From assembly GCA_031266115.1 (NCBI GenBank), contig JAISBQ010000253.1, positions 1 through 36,339 on the forward strand: DNA of 36,339 bases. Reading direction: 5' to 3'. How positions within the stretch are numbered: the first letter of the stretch is position 1; every line of letters starts with the position of its first letter. Shown here one piece after another: positions 8,456-26,815 of this stretch. Source of the stretch: Bifidobacteriaceae bacterium. Lineage in GTDB: Bacteria; Actinomycetota; Actinomycetes; Actinomycetales; WQXJ01. The notes beneath the pieces are model-generated. The model did no database searches, had not been told where the DNA came from, and saw nothing but the letters and a program-made list of their open reading frames with translations. The position numbers and the translations under genes are program-made.

Positions 8456-8500
8456 CTTGCCTCAAACGGGATGGTTGACTTGCCTCAAACGGGATGGTTG
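8456..8500 (+). repeat. Tandem direct repeat, 2 x 22 bp (CTTGCCTCAAACGGGATGGTTG), 23-bp period; candidate operator
   Basis: Exact copies at 8456-8477 and 8479-8500, abutting the GGAGG ribosome-binding site of the DUF4143 gene. Confidence 0.8.
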
Positions 8501-8511
8501 GAGGCCAAGAC

Positions 8512-9783
8512 GTGACTGAGTACCTTCCACGAATTCTTGATGCCAGCCTCGCGGAAGTCCTTGCCTCACTGCCCGCCGTCGCCGTCGATGGCGCCAAAGC
8601 GGTGGGGAAGACCTCGACTGCCAGCCGCGTCGCACGTTCGCTGTTTGCCCTGGACAGCGAACCAACTGCGGCGAGCGTCCGTCTCGACCCCGCACTGCTC
8701 GCCCAGGCCGCCCACCCCGTGCTCATCGACGAATGGCAGCGTGTCCCATCCGTGTGGGACTGGGTGCGCCGTCAGGTCGATGCCAGTGCAGCCCCCGGGC
8801 AGTACATCCTGACCGGCAGCGCGGTTCCTCGTGGCGCCAGCGTTCACTCAGGCGCCGGAAGGATGGTTCGGCTGCAGATGCGACCGTTGTCGCTGGCGGA
8901 ACGCGGTATCGCCGAACCACGCCTTAGCGTCGCGGATCTCTTGATGCAGCCGGATGCCGCTATCCGCGCTCACACGGATGTCACACTGCGTGACTACGTC
9001 CGCGAGATCACGGCCTCAGGCTTTCCAGGAATCCGTGCCCACACGCCCACGAGCCGCCCACGGTTGCTGGACGGGTATATCGCGACGATCGTTGACCGTG
9101 AGGTTCCCGAGCAGGGCACGATGGTGCGTCGGCCTCAGGCACTGCGCAGCTGGTTGCGCGCTTATGCCAGAGCGACAGCAGGCACGGCGCGCTACGAGAA
9201 GATCCTCGATGCTGCCGTGCCCGAGCAGGGCGATAAGCCAGCCAAGAGCACGGCCGCCGCCTACCGTGACACGCTCGCCTCACTGTGGCTCCTGGATCCC
9301 GTGCCGGCGTGGACGCCCGAAGGGTCAGGGCTGAAGAGGCTCGGAAGGACGCCGAAGCATTTCCTCGTTGATCCGGCGATCGCCGCGCGCCTGCTGCGTC
9401 TGACTGAGGCGCGTCTGCTGACCGAGGCCGGACCGGTGCCGCTGGGGCCGCAAAAGGGGGCGATCCTCGGCCGCCTCTTCGAGGCACTCGTCGGTCTCAG
9501 CCTCCACACCTACGCGCTCAGCGCCGGCGCCGAACTATTCCACTTGCGAACCCATGATGGATCCCGCGAGATCGACTTCATCGTCGAGGGCGACGACGCC
9601 ATCATCGCCGTTGAGGTCAAGCTGTCTGCCACCCTCGACGATCACGACGTGCGCCACCTCAACTGGCTGGCCGGCGCGTATCGCGACCGCCCCGTCGCCA
9701 AGATCGTCGTCACCGCGGGGGAGTTCGCCTACCACCGCCCCGACGGCGTCCAGGTGGTCCCCGCCGCCCTCCTCGGACCGTAG
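8512..9783 (+). CDS. DUF4143-type AAA ATPase (ATP-binding protein)
   Basis: Walker A VDGAKAVGKTSTASRVA; LIDEWQRVPSVWDWVRRQVD; TGSAVPRG; C-terminal EIDFIVEGDDAIIAVEVKLS (PD-(D/E)xK-like). GTG start at 8512 with GGAGG 7 nt upstream; the ORF track starts at 8494. Confidence 0.88.
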   Translation: MTEYLPRILDASLAEVLASLPAVAVDGAKAVGKTSTASRVARSLFALDSEPTAASVRLDPALLAQAAHPVLIDEWQRVPSVWDWVRRQVDASAAPGQYILTGSAVPRGASVHSGAGRMVRLQMRPLSLAERGIAEPRLSVADLLMQPDAAIRAHTDVTLRDYVREITASGFPGIRAHTPTSRPRLLDGYIATIVDREVPEQGTMVRRPQALRSWLRAYARATAGTARYEKILDAAVPEQGDKPAKSTAAAYRDTLASLWLLDPVPAWTPEGSGLKRLGRTPKHFLVDPAIAARLLRLTEARLLTEAGPVPLGPQKGAILGRLFEALVGLSLHTYALSAGAELFHLRTHDGSREIDFIVEGDDAIIAVEVKLSATLDDHDVRHLNWLAGAYRDRPVAKIVVTAGEFAYHRPDGVQVVPAALLGP

Positions 9784-9861: not shown

Positions 9862-9867
9862 TAGTCT
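9862..9867 (+). promoter_or_regulatory. Candidate -10 box TAGTCT, 6 nt before the GTG start of the HEPN-like gene (leaderless)
   Basis: TAGTCT-ggcccg-GTG; same geometry as at 18665 and 26822-26827. Confidence 0.45.
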
Positions 9868-9873
9868 GGCCCG

Positions 9874-10314
9874 GTGACCTCCACTCGCGTCCATGTCTCG
9901 TTCCGGGAGCTTCGCAGGGCGGTAAGGCACCATGAGGCCGCCGCAGCGCAGATCACGCCTCGCGGCAACCGCTCTGCGATGCTCCTTCTCTTCTACGCGA
10001 CCGAGTGCGCGCTCAAGGCAGTCGTGCTACGCCAAAGGAACGCCGCGTCGACCGAAGCGCTTGACGATTCACTTCGCAGTCACGATCTCGGTGCGCTGAC
10101 GAAGTCGTTGCGAGTCTCTGCCGAAGTTGGCCGCGATGTGGAGGCGACGTATGATCGTCGGGCCAATCAGGGGCGTCCCATGCCCAAGGTCTCGTTGGCT
10201 CGGACTCATGAGGTGTGGCGCTATGGCGCCAACCTGACCGACGACTCGAACGCTCGCGTGAAGGTCTTACTTGACCGGCTGAGGGATTGGGCCAGAAATG
10301 AGTTGTCGTTATGA
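9874..10314 (+). CDS. HEPN-domain-like small protein
   Basis: 146 aa, all-helical look; AMLLLFYATECALKAVVLRQRN ... SHDLGALTKSLRV ... HEVWRYGANL ... VKVLLDRLRDWARNEL, typical HEPN layout. Overlaps the next gene by 4 bp (ATGA). Confidence 0.65.
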   Translation: MTSTRVHVSFRELRRAVRHHEAAAAQITPRGNRSAMLLLFYATECALKAVVLRQRNAASTEALDDSLRSHDLGALTKSLRVSAEVGRDVEATYDRRANQGRPMPKVSLARTHEVWRYGANLTDDSNARVKVLLDRLRDWARNELSL

Positions 10315-13001
10315 CGCCGTCGCCTGAGCCGATCACCTTTCCCGATCACATCTTTACCTGGATCGACTTGGATGATCACATGGCTGCGCTGGCCTCAGAT
10401 GGCCTGTGGCCAAAGTGGCTGCACGAGTGGAGCGCATACTGGGACTCCGCCGAGATGACCGTTGAAGCGGACACTGAGCCGAACGTCATTGCGACGTGGT
10501 TGGAGGGTTCGCTTGGGCCTCTGTCGGTCCGTGCGGCGGCGCAGGGCGTCTATCAGGTTCGGCTCGACAGCCCACCTGACAGTCCCGGGCGCTGGCTTGA
10601 TCTTCGGATCGCCGAGGGCTCGCGCCCGGTTCCCGCTAGGGTTCCCCGCTGGGGGGTTTCCCGCATTACCTCCTCGTTGGCTGACCCGCTTCCCGAGCCG
10701 GGCGAGGCGTTCCCCGGGGGCGTTCAGGTGGTTGCGACCCACTCCTTCAAGGGAGGGGTTGGCAGGACGCTCCATGCCGTCGCTCTGGCCAAGGCGCTTG
10801 CGGAACGCACTGGCGTGCTCTTGGTGGACGCCGACCTTGAAGCACCGGGCATTTCGTGGATGCGCCCCGGCTCCGCGAGCCAGTCCGACTTCAGCTTCGA
10901 GGACTATCTCGCCATCCTCCACGCCAGCCCCACTGGCTCCTTCGACGAGGCTGTGGCCATAGCGCTGCCCTACCTTGCTGGACAGTCAGTGGGAGGCATC
11001 ACCGTCCTGCCGACCCGCCGAGACCTCGCCCGTCTACGTCCCCCACTTCTGGAGCCACTCAATCTGGTTCAGGGAGCATCGAATCCCTACCGCCTGACCG
11101 AGTCGATCGCTGCCCTCGCCGACGCACTGGGGGCGAAAGTGGCGATTGTCGATCTGCGTGCGGGTATCAGCGAACTGTCCTCACCGATACTCCTCGATCG
11201 CCGTGTGCAAAAGCTGCTTGTCACCAGTGCCAGCGCACAATCGCTGGCCGGCACCCGAATGGTCGTGCGCCAACTCTCACGGCTAGCACCGCTCCGCTCG
11301 GACGATCCGCTGCCCAAACTCCTCGTGACACAGTATCGGGAACGAGAAACCGAAGCCCTTGAGTACGAGCTTGGTCCCGTTGTCGAAGAACTCGGCCATA
11401 TGCGCTTTACGGGGGACGACGATTTGTCCGATGCCGCGGCGATTGGTCTTGCACTCGAACCGCTCATGAGCCCTTTCAGAGAGGACCTCCTGCAACTCCC
11501 TGAGCGCTGGACTCATGTCCTGATCCGGATCCAAAAAGTCGGCTTGTCCAGCGTCATGGACCAGTTCGCCGAGGATCTAGCCAGCAGCCTAGATTCGTCG
11601 GATGAGACGCTATCCACGGTACAGATACTCGATCAGAAAGATCGTCGACAGGCACTAGCTGATCACGCCGACAAGCTCGTCCATGCAGAAGGTGAGACGG
11701 GCGATGGGTTCCTCGCCACCACGTCGCTGCGTCGCCTGGTCAATGCGCATCGGGAACAGCTTCCGCTATGTTTGGTCGTCGGGAAGAAGGGTGCTGGTAA
11801 GACCTTTGCCCAGCTCCAGATGATTTATGCGGGAGACTGGCGGGCCTATGCTCGCCTTGTCCTTCCAGGGTCATCCGCAAGAGATGCGACCGTTGTCCCT
11901 GTACTGACATCTGCAAACTTGGGAGATGCAACACGACATCGAATCGACGAGGCAAACCCGGACAGGAATGTGCTTGATCGCGTATCGCGTGCGCGCGAAA
12001 CGATCGGCGACTATCTTTCTACAGAAGCCTCCGAGGCCGATTGGCGTAGACGGTGGCTTACCCTCTTGGCCCGCTCAATCGATTGTGGCGATGTCGACGA
12101 GGCTGATGTCGAGTCAAGATTTCCCGACATCGTGAAAGGCCGACGTGTCGTCTTTGTTATCGATGGCATTGAAGATGCGTTCCAAGAAGTCGAGGATGAG
12201 CCTCAACAGCAGCAAGGACTTCGTGCCCTCATCACCGGAACACTCGACTGGCTGCGCCGCCTTCCCGGCGGACAAGTGGGGCTGATCGTCTTTGTGCGTG
12301 AAGATCAGGTCCGCGCCGCCTTCAAGCAGAACTCCGATCAGCTACTGGCTAGATATCAGGACTATGCGCTGTCGTGGGACCGTGAAGAAGCTGTGCGGTT
12401 GGCCTATTGGATCACGCAAGTCGCTGACCGCAATCCTAAGACTCTGACCTCAGAAGAGTCGGAGCTGATCCAACGCAAGACGTTGGAGGACCTCACAGGG
12501 GATATGCTTCCTATCTGGGGTGAGAAGATGGGAACGACCAAGTCGAGGAAGGCCAGGTCGCTGAAATGGGTATTGGCCGTCCTATCAGATTTCAATGGTG
12601 ACATTCAGGCTCGGGACGTGGTTCGCTTCTTGGCTGAGGCCGCGGACGCATCGGCGAAAGAAAGAGGATGGGCAGATCGCATCTTGACACCCGGCGGAAT
12701 GCGACGCGCAGTGAAACCCTGTGGTGATATGAAGATCCGCGAGATTAATGAAGAGATGCCAAAGGCGCGTAAGGCACTGGCGCAACTCGGGGCTATCCCT
12801 CAAAATGACCGGAAGATACCATTGGCAGTGAACCTTTATCTGGCCGCTGACCAGGTCGCGCTGTTGAAGGACGTGGGGCTAATCTGGACCAACGAGGAGG
12901 GCATGTGGATGACCGAGTTGGTCAGGGAGGGTCTGGGCTTTAGGTCATCGGGTCGCGGACTCCCGCGGGTGCTGGGGGTCGCGGAGCAGGCCGGCCGCTG
13001 A
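10311..13001 (+). CDS. KGGVGR-motif variant (ParA/MinD-like) ATPase fused to a second STAND/AAA-like P-loop NTPase domain
   Basis: First P-loop THSFKGGVGRTLHAVALAKALAERTGVLLVDADLEAPG (KGGVGRT at 10749-10769), then VAIVDLRAGISELSSPILLDRR; second Walker A LVVGKKGAGKTFAQL (11781-11804) with Walker B RRVVFVIDGIED. Confidence 0.85.
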   Translation: MTPSPEPITFPDHIFTWIDLDDHMAALASDGLWPKWLHEWSAYWDSAEMTVEADTEPNVIATWLEGSLGPLSVRAAAQGVYQVRLDSPPDSPGRWLDLRIAEGSRPVPARVPRWGVSRITSSLADPLPEPGEAFPGGVQVVATHSFKGGVGRTLHAVALAKALAERTGVLLVDADLEAPGISWMRPGSASQSDFSFEDYLAILHASPTGSFDEAVAIALPYLAGQSVGGITVLPTRRDLARLRPPLLEPLNLVQGASNPYRLTESIAALADALGAKVAIVDLRAGISELSSPILLDRRVQKLLVTSASAQSLAGTRMVVRQLSRLAPLRSDDPLPKLLVTQYRERETEALEYELGPVVEELGHMRFTGDDDLSDAAAIGLALEPLMSPFREDLLQLPERWTHVLIRIQKVGLSSVMDQFAEDLASSLDSSDETLSTVQILDQKDRRQALADHADKLVHAEGETGDGFLATTSLRRLVNAHREQLPLCLVVGKKGAGKTFAQLQMIYAGDWRAYARLVLPGSSARDATVVPVLTSANLGDATRHRIDEANPDRNVLDRVSRARETIGDYLSTEASEADWRRRWLTLLARSIDCGDVDEADVESRFPDIVKGRRVVFVIDGIEDAFQEVEDEPQQQQGLRALITGTLDWLRRLPGGQVGLIVFVREDQVRAAFKQNSDQLLARYQDYALSWDREEAVRLAYWITQVADRNPKTLTSEESELIQRKTLEDLTGDMLPIWGEKMGTTKSRKARSLKWVLAVLSDFNGDIQARDVVRFLAEAADASAKERGWADRILTPGGMRRAVKPCGDMKIREINEEMPKARKALAQLGAIPQNDRKIPLAVNLYLAADQVALLKDVGLIWTNEEGMWMTELVREGLGFRSSGRGLPRVLGVAEQAGR

Positions 13002-13055: not shown

Positions 13056-14060
13056 TCACACTCGCGGCGGGGCAACCTGCGAGGCGGATTCCTGATCCTG
13101 GGCCTCGCCAGCGGCCGGGGCGTACTGCATCTGCTTGATCCGCTCCAGCGCGTCCTCCAGCAGGGCACGGTTGGAGCGTTGCAGATCGGCAATCACGAGC
13201 AGTGCGAAGCACAGCAACGACCCGGTGAGCATCGCCGTACCGAAGACCAGGGATTGGATATGGCCGTCTGGGGATCCGGTCACCCAATAGTACAAGAACC
13301 GCGCAAAGGGCAAGAGCCCAGCAACTCCCAGCACGGCACCTATGGTGGCGAACACCATGTACGGCTTGTACATGACATAGGAACGGGCAATGGCTTGTCC
13401 GGACTTCACCATGTGTTGCCCAATGTTCTTGAACAACCGCGATTCGCGTGTCTTCGGATTCGTCGTGATGGGAATGCTCGCGATCCGCAAACGCTTGTTC
13501 CCCGCCTGGATGATGGTCTCCATGCAGTAGCTGAACCTGGTGATGATGTTGAGTCGCATCAGGGCGCCGCGAGAATAGGCGCGAAATCCGCTGGCGGCAT
13601 CGGGCAACGCGGTCCCGGCGGCCGCATTGACCACGTAACTCCCAATCCTCTGCATCGCCTTCTTCACGGGCGAAAAGTGGGAGATGGTCGCAGTTTGGCG
13701 ATCCCCAACCACACGCTCGGCCTGACCCCTCAGTATCGGCTGAATCAGATCGCCGATCCTCGCCTGCGGATATTGGTCGTCTCCGTCGGTGTTGACCACG
13801 ATGTCGGCCCCGTGGGCGAGAGCGTAATCCACGCCGTCGCGAAAGGCTCGCGCCAGACCCATGGTGCTGGTGTGGCGAACAACGTGGACCACGCCGAGAT
13901 TCCGGGCCACCTCGGCCGTCCGGTCAGTCGAGCCATCGTCGATCACCAGAATTTCCACCGTGTCCACGCCGTCGATGCGCCGGGGGATGGTGGCCAGCAC
14001 GTGCGGCAGAGTCGCCTCCTCGTTGAGGCATGGGATCTGAACAAAGAGCTTCATCGGCAT
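13056..14060 (-). CDS. Glycosyltransferase family 2, polyprenyl-phosphate sugar transferase-like, with C-terminal TM helices
   Basis: MKLFVQIPCLNEEATLPHVLATIP...EILVIDDGSTDRTAEVA...NTDGDDQYP; C-terminal hydrophobic helices and coiled-coil-like QRSNRALLEDALERIKQMQ. Confidence 0.88.
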   Translation of the reverse strand: MPMKLFVQIPCLNEEATLPHVLATIPRRIDGVDTVEILVIDDGSTDRTAEVARNLGVVHVVRHTSTMGLARAFRDGVDYALAHGADIVVNTDGDDQYPQARIGDLIQPILRGQAERVVGDRQTATISHFSPVKKAMQRIGSYVVNAAAGTALPDAASGFRAYSRGALMRLNIITRFSYCMETIIQAGNKRLRIASIPITTNPKTRESRLFKNIGQHMVKSGQAIARSYVMYKPYMVFATIGAVLGVAGLLPFARFLYYWVTGSPDGHIQSLVFGTAMLTGSLLCFALLVIADLQRSNRALLEDALERIKQMQYAPAAGEAQDQESASQVAPPRV

Positions 14061-14134
14061 TCCTGGTGTGGGTTTGACCCGGCAAGTCTAGGGCGGCGCT
14101 GCGGGCCGCGCCATCGCCCGCCGCCCTCGGGCGG

Positions 14135-15352
14135 TCAGCGGGTCCGGGCGAGCTGGTCGAGGACGAGACCAGCAACCTGGTCTGCACACGGGCGATCACC
14201 CGGGCGAACGCCCTCGCCGGGCACAGTGATCCACTCCCGCGCGAAAGCACGAGCGTCCTCCTCGGTACTTGCCCCACCGACGATGGCGTCCATCAGCTCA
14301 CCCGGATCGCTCACCACCGGGAACGGAGTCTCGCGGGCGATGTCGGTGTACAGGCCGCGGTCCCGTCGGTACGCCTCCAGGTCCGGGGCGAAGAAGTAGC
14401 AGGGCACGCCGAGCAGTGCCGCCTCGAACACCGCCGAGGAATAGTCGGTGGCGAATGCCGAGGCCACCGAGGCCAGCTCGGCCGTCGTGAACCCGTCGGC
14501 GCTGCGGACTCCGCGGACGGCGGGCGCCAACGGGTGCCGCGAGTGGATCAGGGTCAACCCTCGGCTCGCCGCAGCGCGGGCCAAGGCGGCGACATCGGGC
14601 GGAGTGGATCGGCCCGGGCGGTGAGTGGGGGCATAGAGGACTATCGTGCGTCCCTCCAGGTCGGGGTAGGCCGCCAGGATGCGCCGGCGCACGGACTCAC
14701 GCGCGCGGGGGTCAAGGAGCAGATCCACCCGTGGTAGGGGGGCGATCGCGATCCGCTCACGCACAACACGGAACGCCGAGGCATATGGGTCGCGACACCG
14801 TTCGGAACTCACGAGCACCATGTCATAGCCCCGATGCATCCTCCCGGCCTCGGCGATGGCGCGAGATCGGCCGTCCGGCATCCCCACGGCATCCCATCCG
14901 AACCACTTCAACGCCCCCAACGCGTGCCACAGCTGGACCGTGCGCAGGCGCTGTCCCCAGCTCACGCCGGATACGACGGGCGAATACGTGTCCACCACCA
15001 CCACTCGTGCGGTCGCCGCGAGACGCAGTTGGGCCAGGGTGCCCGCCGAGAACCGCAGCCATCCCCGCAGACCTGGGGTTTGGAAACGGGCATCGACCAT
15101 CACGTCGAGCCTCGGATCCCGCCGCCACAAGGCCTCACGCAGGAGGCGAAAGTCTTCCGGCTCCCCGACCTGTTCGCGCGATAGCATCACCACCCGCCGC
15201 CGTGGCCGACACCCCACGCGAACCATCCAGCCCGCTGCCTGGAGACCGACCTGCATGAGCCGCGCAGGCACAACGCTCCCGGCTACGCGCATACGCTGCC
15301 GCAGCCCCCGCGCGGCTCTGGCTCTCCCGTGAGCCACGCCCCGACCCCTCAC
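14135..15352 (-). CDS. CDP-glycerol glycerophosphotransferase-like protein
   Basis: TVQLWHALGALKWFGWDAVG...TIVLYAPTHRPG...LIHSRHPLAP...FATDYSSAVFEAALLGVPCYFFAPDLEAYRRDRGLY. Confidence 0.85.
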   Translation of the reverse strand: MRGRGVAHGRARAARGLRQRMRVAGSVVPARLMQVGLQAAGWMVRVGCRPRRRVVMLSREQVGEPEDFRLLREALWRRDPRLDVMVDARFQTPGLRGWLRFSAGTLAQLRLAATARVVVVDTYSPVVSGVSWGQRLRTVQLWHALGALKWFGWDAVGMPDGRSRAIAEAGRMHRGYDMVLVSSERCRDPYASAFRVVRERIAIAPLPRVDLLLDPRARESVRRRILAAYPDLEGRTIVLYAPTHRPGRSTPPDVAALARAAASRGLTLIHSRHPLAPAVRGVRSADGFTTAELASVASAFATDYSSAVFEAALLGVPCYFFAPDLEAYRRDRGLYTDIARETPFPVVSDPGELMDAIVGGASTEEDARAFAREWITVPGEGVRPGDRPCADQVAGLVLDQLARTR

Positions 15353-16707
15353 CGTTCACCCCCGATGGGCGCACCCGCCAGGATCAGGCGTTCGGTGATC
15401 CGCCGGGTCGAACGCCCATCGCAAGCGGAGGCGAACTCGGCGAGAAAAGGCGCCAGGACGTCATCGTCCATGGTGGCGGACCTGATCGCCGCCGCCAAGC
15501 CACGCGATTCAGCGACCACCGGCCCGATGAGATACCGCTCGAACGGCCGGTAGAAGTCGCGGCTCACCGTGTATTCATCCAGGTCAGGCGCAAAAAACAC
15601 GATGGGCCGCCGCAACAGAGCGGCCTCGAAGATCGACGAGGAGTAGTCGGTCACCAGGGCGTCGGCGGCGATGAGCAACTCCGTCATCTCGCGTTCATCG
15701 GTGACGTCAATCAAGCCCGGCACTCGCGCCTCGGGCGCGAGTGACCCGACAAAGGGATGCATCTTGACCACGAGCGTCCACTCGGGGGCAAGATCCCGGA
15801 CCAGGCCGGCCCAGTCCACCCAGGACGCGTCGTAGTGGGCGGTCCGCTCCCCGTGGCCCCGGAACGTCGGCGCGAACAGGACAATCTTCGAGCCGGCCGC
15901 CACGCCGAATCGTGCGCGGACGCGAGCGCGGGTGGCGGCGACGGCATCGGTGTCGAAGAAGGCGTCGGTGCGCGGCACGCCCAGCGCATGCACCCGCGTG
16001 CGGGGAATCCCGAAGGACTCGGCGACGTCGGCGCGGACGCCCTCGGCGCTGGCGGTCGCCCAGGTGTAGTTGCGGTGGATGCGCGAACCCGGCACCGGGC
16101 CGCCCGGCAGACCCGCCCGCGAATGACCAACCCGCTTGAAGGCGCCCACGGCATGCCACACCTGGCCGAGCTCGGTCTCGGGACGCAGGGTGACGTGGTA
16201 GATCATCGGGTAGAAATCGTCGAGGACTATCACGCGGCTGCGCGCCATCACCGCAGGCAAGCCCAACGCCTGACGTAGCGAGCGCAACCCTCGGCCCGAC
16301 GCCCGCAACACCGGGACCACCCGCGTCGACGGAGACTGCCTGGCGATCTCGTCGCGCAGATCGGCGAGGTTCCCGGTGAGCTCGCCGCGTGAATCGGACA
16401 GGAACGCCACCTGCCGCGGGTCCACCTGAATGAGGCGCCGGGCGAACGCGTAGGCGGCGATGTAGTACCAGTAGCGCCACCGTGCGGCGAACAGACTCCG
16501 GCGGACGATGGCGCGCACCACCTGCGCCGGACCCATCCGGATGGCGCGGGCGGCCAGGTGCCCTACGCTCTCGTGACGCTCATCGTCACCGGGGCGACGT
16601 CGCCGTGCTCCCATGCGCCGCAGCATCCCTTCTGTCGTGCCGTCGATACCCCACGCCGGCCCCACCCTACTTGGCTGGATGGTCGCTCCGTTCGCCCGCG
16701 GGCCCAC
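15349..16707 (-). CDS. CDP-glycerol glycerophosphotransferase-like protein
   Basis: GQVWHAVGAFKRVGHSRAG...KIVLFAPTFRGHG...LVVKMHPFV...ALVTDYSSSIFEAALLRRPIVFFAPDLDEY. 4-bp ATGA overlap with the downstream paralogue; exact start uncertain. Confidence 0.85.
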   Translation of the reverse strand: MGPRANGATIQPSRVGPAWGIDGTTEGMLRRMGARRRRPGDDERHESVGHLAARAIRMGPAQVVRAIVRRSLFAARWRYWYYIAAYAFARRLIQVDPRQVAFLSDSRGELTGNLADLRDEIARQSPSTRVVPVLRASGRGLRSLRQALGLPAVMARSRVIVLDDFYPMIYHVTLRPETELGQVWHAVGAFKRVGHSRAGLPGGPVPGSRIHRNYTWATASAEGVRADVAESFGIPRTRVHALGVPRTDAFFDTDAVAATRARVRARFGVAAGSKIVLFAPTFRGHGERTAHYDASWVDWAGLVRDLAPEWTLVVKMHPFVGSLAPEARVPGLIDVTDEREMTELLIAADALVTDYSSSIFEAALLRRPIVFFAPDLDEYTVSRDFYRPFERYLIGPVVAESRGLAAAIRSATMDDDVLAPFLAEFASACDGRSTRRITERLILAGAPIGGER

Positions 16708-21747: not shown

Positions 21748-22146
21748 CTAGGCCCCAGCTCCCAGCACGGGCAGCCCAAGGAGCAGGGCCGCCTCAGCCA
21801 TTCGTTCGTCGAAAGTCACCACAGCTTCGAGATCGTCACCGAGCGTCAGCGCGCTCGCCACATGAATCGCATCCAAGCTCCGCGGTATCGCCGGGTCCAG
21901 GTCTGCTGCCCTGTCGAGGACAGCGAGGTCCACGACAATCAGATCGAGAGATTCAAGAAGCTGTCGCGCGCGAACCTTGGTGGCGAGCGGCTGCGTCCGA
22001 ACCGCTCGCAACAGCTCAGTCCAGGCGATGGCGCTCGATGTGGGGCGCTCGCGCATGTGGGCCCAGATTGCCCGCGCACTGTCGCTTCCAGGTTCCATGA
22101 CGAGAACCTTCACCAACGCGGACGTGTCGACGTAGCACGTCATCAT
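21748..22146 (-). CDS. PIN-domain toxin (VapC-like)
   Basis: MMTCYVDTSALVKVLVMEPGSD...SAIAWTELLRAV...SLDAIHVASALTLGDDLEAVVTFDERM; TAATG overlap with the antitoxin stop. ORF track start 22152. Confidence 0.88.
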   Translation of the reverse strand: MMTCYVDTSALVKVLVMEPGSDSARAIWAHMRERPTSSAIAWTELLRAVRTQPLATKVRARQLLESLDLIVVDLAVLDRAADLDPAIPRSLDAIHVASALTLGDDLEAVVTFDERMAEAALLLGLPVLGAGA

Positions 22147-22421
22147 TACCACCTCTCCGCATCACGCATCTCGGCAAGAACCTCACTGGGAGATGGCTGA
22201 CCCTCGCCAAGTTCCTCTGGCGGACCGAAATCGCGATGGTCGCGCGACGCGGGGCGCAGACGCCCAGCGGCGACCATCCGTTCGCGGCGCGTCGCGGGAA
22301 GGGGGATGATCTGGGCGACTTCAGCGCCCCTGTCTGTGATGATGACTTCTTCGCCCCTTCTCGCCGCTGCTATCGCACCGGCTGGATTCTGACGCAGTTC
22401 ACGGATCCCGACTGACCTCAT
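22146..22421 (-). CDS. Phd/YefM-type antitoxin
   Basis: MRSVGIRELRQNPAGAIAAARRGEEVIITDRGAEVAQIIPL; directly upstream of a PIN toxin. Confidence 0.88.
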   Translation of the reverse strand: MRSVGIRELRQNPAGAIAAARRGEEVIITDRGAEVAQIIPLPATRRERMVAAGRLRPASRDHRDFGPPEELGEGQPSPSEVLAEMRDAERW

Positions 22422-26195: not shown

Positions 26196-26585
26196 TCACC
26201 ACAGGCGCCGCAGCGTGGGCAGGGTGGCGAAGGCACGATCAGCACTCACTAGGGTCGCGTCCTCGATGATGGTCTGACTTGCGAGCATCCGATCAAACGG
26301 ATCGCGGTGCTCCCACGCCAACTGCCCGGCCCGGATGGCATGGCGCCCACGCACAGGCAACAGCACGGATCCGAGCGTTGCCAGGGCTGCGTCGAGATCA
26401 TCAAGCAGCGCAGCCGCCTCAGGCAATCGCCCCTGATGATGCTTGATGCTCATCTCCCACACGCTCGCCGCTGAGACCAGCAATTCGTTGGTCCGGTCAG
26501 CCAATGCCTCGTGGGCCCGCTCGGACAACCGGCCAGGATTCCACGCCATCCACACCAGCACATGTGTGTCCGCAAGCAGTCTCAC
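26196..26585 (-). CDS. PIN-domain toxin (VapC-like)
   Basis: VRLLADTHVLVWMAWNPGRLSERAHEAL...SAASVWEMSIKHHQGRL...HRDPFDRMLASQTIIEDATLVSADRAF. GTG at 26585 preceded by GGAGGGG; GTGA overlap with the antitoxin stop. Confidence 0.88.
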   Translation of the reverse strand: MRLLADTHVLVWMAWNPGRLSERAHEALADRTNELLVSAASVWEMSIKHHQGRLPEAAALLDDLDAALATLGSVLLPVRGRHAIRAGQLAWEHRDPFDRMLASQTIIEDATLVSADRAFATLPTLRRLW

Positions 26586-26815
26586 GTCCCCTCCCACTCC
26601 CGTGCCTCGTCTTCGGTCATCGGGGCGAAGACCTCCAGTGGGATGTCGGCATGACCCAAGAAGCCCAACGCGCGGCGCGCCGGCGCCTCAATCGGTGTCA
26701 AACGGGCCACCGGCTTCCCGGCGCGCGCGACGACAACCTCGGCCCCGTTCTCGACCTCGGCAAGCAACCGCGACAGCGTGGTTTTCGCCTCTTGGACATT
26801 CACCTGAATCGTCAT
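26582..26815 (-). CDS. Phd/YefM-type antitoxin
   Basis: MTIQVNVQEAKTTLSRLLAEVENGAEVVVARAGKPVARLTPIE. Confidence 0.88.
   Translation of the reverse strand: MTIQVNVQEAKTTLSRLLAEVENGAEVVVARAGKPVARLTPIEAPARRALGFLGHADIPLEVFAPMTEDEAREWEGT

Follow-up and report, generated by a model that had tools for sequence, protein, structure and literature searches.

A HEPN-fold protein paired with a double NTPase: a fused two-gene variant of the defence candidate PDC-M28

Judged by sequence comparison, a two-gene operon in the 36,339-nucleotide stretch of Bifidobacteriaceae DNA that we analysed (the window) is a fused variant of the catalogued candidate PDC-M28 rather than a new family, and we consider it likely that the pair is a mobile, dispensable antiphage module of the abortive-infection type. 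The system appears to be real and conserved, and it is probably defensive.

The two-gene unit and its relation to PDC-M28

The small gene (9874-10314, +; GTG start, from ORF calling) encodes a 146-aa protein with a predicted HEPN fold, which we regard as a diverged PDC-M28A, and the large gene (10311-13001, +; ATG start) encodes an 896-aa double-NTPase protein that corresponds to PDC-M28B and PDC-M28C fused. The first-pass annotation was correct in describing a 4-bp ATGA overlap between these open reading frames: the stop of the first and the start of the second share bases 10311-10314 (+), coupling the two genes, and comparable overlaps are found at the gene junction in several relatives. Position 9862, where that annotation began the operon, lies 12 bases 5′ of the GTG of the HEPN gene. 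Both genes appear to be real, since their protein sequences are kept in far relatives (the pair persists in distant genomes at 34-42% identity in alignments) and since dN is well under dS in near pairs, both for the HEPN (0.10 versus 0.76) and for the ATPase (0.07 versus 0.44). The GC content of the operon (0.604, compared to 0.670 for the window) is among the lowest for any 3.1-kb stretch of the window, which is consistent with horizontal arrival.

The large protein was thought at first reading to join a ParA/MinD-like module to a STAND/AAA-like module, and this architecture is supported by NCBIfam, PADLOC and Foldseek matches and by an intact second P-loop; the KGGVGRT, GKKGAGKT and FVIDGIED motifs are all present where they had been placed. 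The first module is a SIMIBI MinD/ParA-like domain (residues 138-322; 10722-11276, +; NCBIfam and Foldseek), which exceeds the curated cut-off of the NCBIfam AAA_KGGVGR family (NF047398; 145.9 bits versus 90); the best Foldseek matches of the first half of the ATPase model were ParA, FlhG, MinD, Soj and FleN. Within its KGGVGRT motif (residues 147-153; 10749-10769, +), all aligned members of the fused clade retain the signature lysine but have arginine in place of the canonical Walker A lysine. The second module is Sll1717/STAND-like, with a P-loop GKKGAGKT that is an intact Walker A (residues 491-498; 11781-11804, +) and a Walker B, FVIDGIED (residues 615-622; 12153-12176, +), both of which are invariant in alignments of the fused clade. 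Its score against the NCBIfam Sll1717 P-loop ATPase family (NF047389) was below the curated cut-off (43.5 bits versus 75), and the module thus seems related to that family without being a member by this measure. The protein ends in a helix and beta-hairpin that may be winged-helix-like, as suggested by the secondary structure predicted in the AlphaFold model (12843-12998, +).

PADLOC lists PDC-M28 as three genes in the order A-B-C, encoding a HEPN protein, a KGGVGR ATPase and an Sll1717-type ATPase. PDCs are candidates by guilt-by-embedding and mostly unvalidated, according to a secondary account (PMC12988326) whose primary source is the preprint of Payne et al. (2024). The PDC-M28B model matched residues 138-325 of the 896-aa protein (E 2.2e-15), followed along the same protein by PDC-M28C (E 2.2e-10; 8.8e-15 for the Streptomyces copy). 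Thus, the proposal that the system was undescribed was wrong, given that the family already stands in PADLOC as a candidate; with respect to a close match to a known system, the family itself is catalogued, but the form in the window is a diverged fusion of it. We searched the literature for KGGVGR, for PDC-M28 and for the E. coli accessions without finding a study of function.

We compared the window with split and fused relatives. One split plasmid locus, a bona fide PDC-M28 (L086/L087), matched the three models strongly (A 3e-40, B 3e-143, C 3e-165). Many of the split relatives are located on plasmids, where a HEPN-size gene lies immediately upstream of B and a C-size gene lies downstream in all inspected loci but one, in which the annotated stretch ends. 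Split PDC-M28 was also found inside three BREX-2 loci, between pglX and the gene at the PglY position in Thiodictyon and Sphaerotilus, and between pglW and pglX in Streptomyces sp. NBC_01334. On a Nostoc plasmid, a fused two-gene locus adjoins hsdR (A 2e-10, B 2e-41, C 4e-27), and another fused form is actinobacterial (L076). A single fusion event was not demonstrable, as the fused forms L081 and L076 were placed in the trees without support.

Several loci with related domains have other neighbours. On Massilia and Rhizobium plasmids (L083, L084, L085), a gene annotated as an MqsA family antitoxin lies directly 5′ of one for a 620-aa ParA family protein of the KGGVGR type. At L074 (6746-10880), a 976-aa KGGVGRT protein is preceded by a gene that reads as a TIR-type protein, by which reading the same switch domain would have a different effector as partner. 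On an Aeromicrobium plasmid (L082, 4294-6398), an AbiEi antitoxin-domain gene is followed by a stand-alone match to PDC-M28C (E 3e-18).

The HEPN protein and its candidate active site

The initial designation of the small protein as HEPN-like had been a guess from the sequence; it is upheld by structure prediction and by relatives that match a Pfam HEPN family, and we conclude that the protein is predicted to have a HEPN fold. Direct sequence searches of Pfam, NCBIfam and the PDB yielded nothing significant for the window protein, and no Pfam HEPN model matched it. In contrast to these searches, a Foldseek search of the PDB with its AlphaFold model (pLDDT 86.8) gave HEPN domains as all of the best eight matches, at probabilities of up to 0.97 and E values of only 0.07 or worse; the neighbours include the human sacsin HEPN, which came first, TT1696, 4nqf, ST0689 and AF0298 (2hsb). 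HEPNs from distant split PDC-M28 loci match Pfam HEPN (PF05168) with E values of 4.9e-5, which passes the gathering score, and 3.8e-4, which narrowly misses it, and some other PDC-M28A proteins match HEPN_AbiV weakly.

The relation of this protein to PDC-M28A itself is more distant. The PDC-M28A model reached E 0.0033 for the phage copy described below, and had no match in the HEPN of the Streptomyces or E. coli copies. Profile-profile comparison (hhalign) of the window HEPN with PDC-M28A gave probabilities of 51-90%, and the match between the HEPN and the PDC-M28A alignment of three sequences is a weak profile match. On fold, motif, context and bridging loci, we tentatively assign the window HEPN to PDC-M28A, with a direct match that is weak (E 0.025).

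If the HEPN is an RNase, its active site would differ from the familiar one. The Rx4-6H motif is absent at R116 in the window HEPN, as it is in 19 of the 21 family members in a residue table, and RNase activity is not assured because the histidine of that motif is missing in so many. Nevertheless, E44-x3-K48, H70 and R116-Y117 are nearly invariant family-wide, very distant members included. In the model, E44 and K48 lie on helix 2, H70 in the connection between helices 2 and 3, and R116-Y117 at the end of helix 3; Anantharaman et al. (2013) proposed an alternative active site at those helix positions for AbiV/AF0298-like HEPNs (PMC3710099). The window protein has the AF0298/AbiV-type set, namely the retained R116, an insert histidine (H70) and an Ex3K (E44/K48) on helix 2. 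Thus, catalysis by this HEPN is possible.

We considered that the HEPN might instead be a non-catalytic subunit that senses by binding nucleotide or RNA, with killing carried out by the ATPase protein or a host factor. Such a role would fit both the loss of the Rx4-6H motif noted above and the best Foldseek match, since the motif has been described as missing from the human sacsin HEPN. However, the near invariance of the E, K, H, R and Y residues in very distant members goes beyond the needs of a scaffold, and searches of NCBIfam and Pfam recognised no nuclease or other effector domain in the 896-aa protein that could do the killing. On balance, we think a non-catalytic role for the HEPN somewhat unlikely.

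Distribution and genomic contexts of the pair

The first-pass annotation had suggested gene-neighbourhood analysis of the HEPN pairing, and we searched 396 genomes of the class with a HEPN profile based on the copies from the window and from Streptomyces. The profile found 10 genomes, all 10 with the double ATPase directly downstream, and an ATPase profile searched against 396 genomes of this class returned the same ten genomes and no further intact copy. The expected conservation of the pairing was therefore borne out, the pair being obligate in the class in both search directions (10/10 genomes). A scan of contigs with N-terminal patterns returned only the Streptomyces thermodiastaticus copy, and tblastn of the window proteins against plasmids gave no matches.

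The unit is dispensable and turning over, because intact, frameshifted and deleted states coexist within one genus, each in a different species. The deletion is a clean loss of 3.1 kb that left about 70 C-terminal codons (L077 8843-9088, compared to L051 5833-8965). The flanks stay collinear; identity across them is 90-93% where the unit is deleted (G662) and roughly 81-94% where it is frameshifted (G678). A housekeeping function was rejected, as the pair is confined to 10 of 396 genomes and has decayed in sister genomes.

The chromosomal copies of Streptomyces and others occur at ordinary loci, flanked mostly by housekeeping genes. For these actinobacterial copies, the anticipated enrichment of defence islands was not seen when their surroundings were compared by PADLOC with 14 control regions taken from seven of these genomes; the nearby PADLOC matches were mostly kinase-type cross-hits that were as frequent in the controls. 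The sole specific neighbour among these surroundings is in the window, where a gene for an AAA_14 plus DUF4143 protein that matches the candidate defence gene PDC-S01 (8494-9783, +; PADLOC E 3.6e-76, and Pfam) lies on the same strand as the HEPN gene and 90 bp 5′ of it. This match occurs at one of the ten loci and in none of the other nine, which places it outside the conserved unit.

The window has other features of note. The operon is placed in a cell-surface polysaccharide region, with genes of the glycosyltransferase family 2 and CDP-glycerol glycerophosphotransferase types at 13056-16707 and around. Two putative VapBC-like pairs, each an antitoxin with a PIN-type toxin by our reading of the sequence, lie at 21748-22421 and 26196-26815 (-), and an open frame of about 3149 aa that runs to the contig end (26888-36337, -) reads as a repetitive InlB-like surface protein.

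Mobile elements provide a different setting. A scan of viral contigs with the ATPase alignment yielded one full-length relative, in a P2-like phage, where it lies with its HEPN between the portal gene gpQ and the replication protein gene gpA. The DNA of the phage copy led to matches in 11 of 5426 complete E. coli genomes. In all five that we inspected, a HEPN and a 'ParA family protein' form a pair between the tRNA-Leu integrase and psu of a P4-like satellite, with one of these copies annotated in two pieces. The two proteins of the E. coli satellite unit carry the accessions WP_096943773 and WP_016245209. One clade with 100/100 support unites the window copy and eight further actinobacterial copies with the phage copy and an E. 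coli copy. According to the main text of Rousset et al. (2022), the gpQ-gpA interval of P2 and the psu-int interval of P4 are antiphage hotspots, and we found no mention there of cloning or testing of this system (PMC9122126). The defence role proposed at the outset thus gains support from the location of the window clade in the P2 and P4 hotspots and of the split form inside BREX-2, both of which point to a probable function in immunity. In Microcystis phage Mic1 (L118, 4010-4630), a short 'ParA' gene matches the copy of the P2-like phage only over the latter's STAND-like module and is possibly a truncated or decoy relative.

Two further explanations bear on these contexts. The pair could be a toxin-antitoxin system, with a HEPN toxin neutralised by the ATPase and defence a mere by-product: HEPN proteins are common toxins, the genes are coupled through ATGA, and even HEPNs poor in motifs can still be toxic (PMC3710099). 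However, the partner is a double NTPase of 900 aa whose invariant second ATP site brings it closer to a sensor than to an antitoxin, and we regard this explanation as quite improbable. Abortive-infection systems are often conditional toxin-antitoxin systems, and for this reason the toxin-antitoxin and abortive-defence readings overlap. It is quite improbable that the unit is a partition or maintenance module, in which the ParA-like protein would segregate a replicon or prophage and the HEPN would be an accessory or addiction protein, since the ParA/MinD fold, the 'ParA family protein' annotation in E. coli, the many plasmid-borne split relatives and the non-defence cargo of P2 hotspots, including putative partition systems in some P2-like phages (described in PMC9122126), are set against the replaced catalytic Walker A lysine throughout the clade, the additional fused STAND-like ATPase, the HEPN as constant partner with no ParB seen, the ordinary chromosomal loci in Streptomyces and others, and the insertion of the split form within BREX-2.

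Proposed function and comparison with known systems

Returning to the abortive-infection module that we favour, we propose that the HEPN and double-ATPase proteins form a complex in which the MinD-like domain would be a dimer platform that holds nucleotide and hydrolyses it slowly or not at all, and an infection cue would be sensed by the STAND-like module and its winged-helix-like tail. Nucleotide exchange or hydrolysis at the STAND-like module might then release or assemble a HEPN dimer, which would cut or block RNA through the alternative E44/K48, H70 and R116 site, shutting down translation so that the infected cell is stopped in an abortive outcome. The order of these events is conjecture, because the AlphaFold model of the ATPase is only moderate (pLDDT 72). 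We tentatively advance the possibility of a distinct immune design, in which a HEPN effector with a non-canonical site is under the control of a ParA/MinD switch that is locked by the lysine-to-arginine change in Walker A and joined to a STAND-like sensor. Such a design would be common to the chromosomes of actinobacteria, to P2-like phages and to P4 satellites, and would be one not so far recognised in experiments as a defence system.

Through the analysis, two genes known anonymously as 'hypothetical protein' and 'ParA family protein', in a clade that annotation leaves unassigned, become a specified defence candidate open to testing. It also links PDC-M28, a candidate known only from a database, to two experimentally established antiphage hotspots. 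The homologue in the E. coli P4 satellite suits standard phage panels, such that the candidate is directly testable in E. coli. If the proposal is true, immunity is regulated here by a ParA/MinD switch whose Walker A is broken, and the system would put to the test the prediction, made in 2013, that HEPN domains lacking Rx4-6H may work through a different active site.

With respect to known systems, the conflict systems treated in part by Kaur et al. (2020) offer a precedent by analogy for the architecture of the window protein, in that MinD/ParA-like domains predicted to be inactive are joined there to AP-ATPases, which are STAND-type NTPases (PMC7159879). Those systems differ in being peptide-processing or ternary systems of multicellular bacteria, with no HEPN partner seen in that account, and the likeness rests on architecture. 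The window HEPN resembles the AbiV/AF0298-type HEPNs (HEPN-T, PF05168) in the retained arginine, the absence of the Rx4-6H histidine, the insert histidine and the Ex3K on helix 2 (PMC3710099), but it has no significant direct match to either Pfam family and has an obligate double-NTPase partner. With the P2 (gpQ-gpA) and P4 (psu-int) hotspot systems it shares location, as its clade-mates occupy exactly both of these hotspots (PMC9122126). The closest likeness in gene content is to PDC-M28, which has a HEPN, a KGGVGR MinD-like ATPase and an Sll1717/STAND-like ATPase in the identical order. In contrast to the three separate genes of PDC-M28, the window and all of its clade-mates encode B and C as a single protein; the PDC-M28A model does not detect the window HEPN with confidence (E 0.025), and long branches separate the window clade in both the B and C trees.
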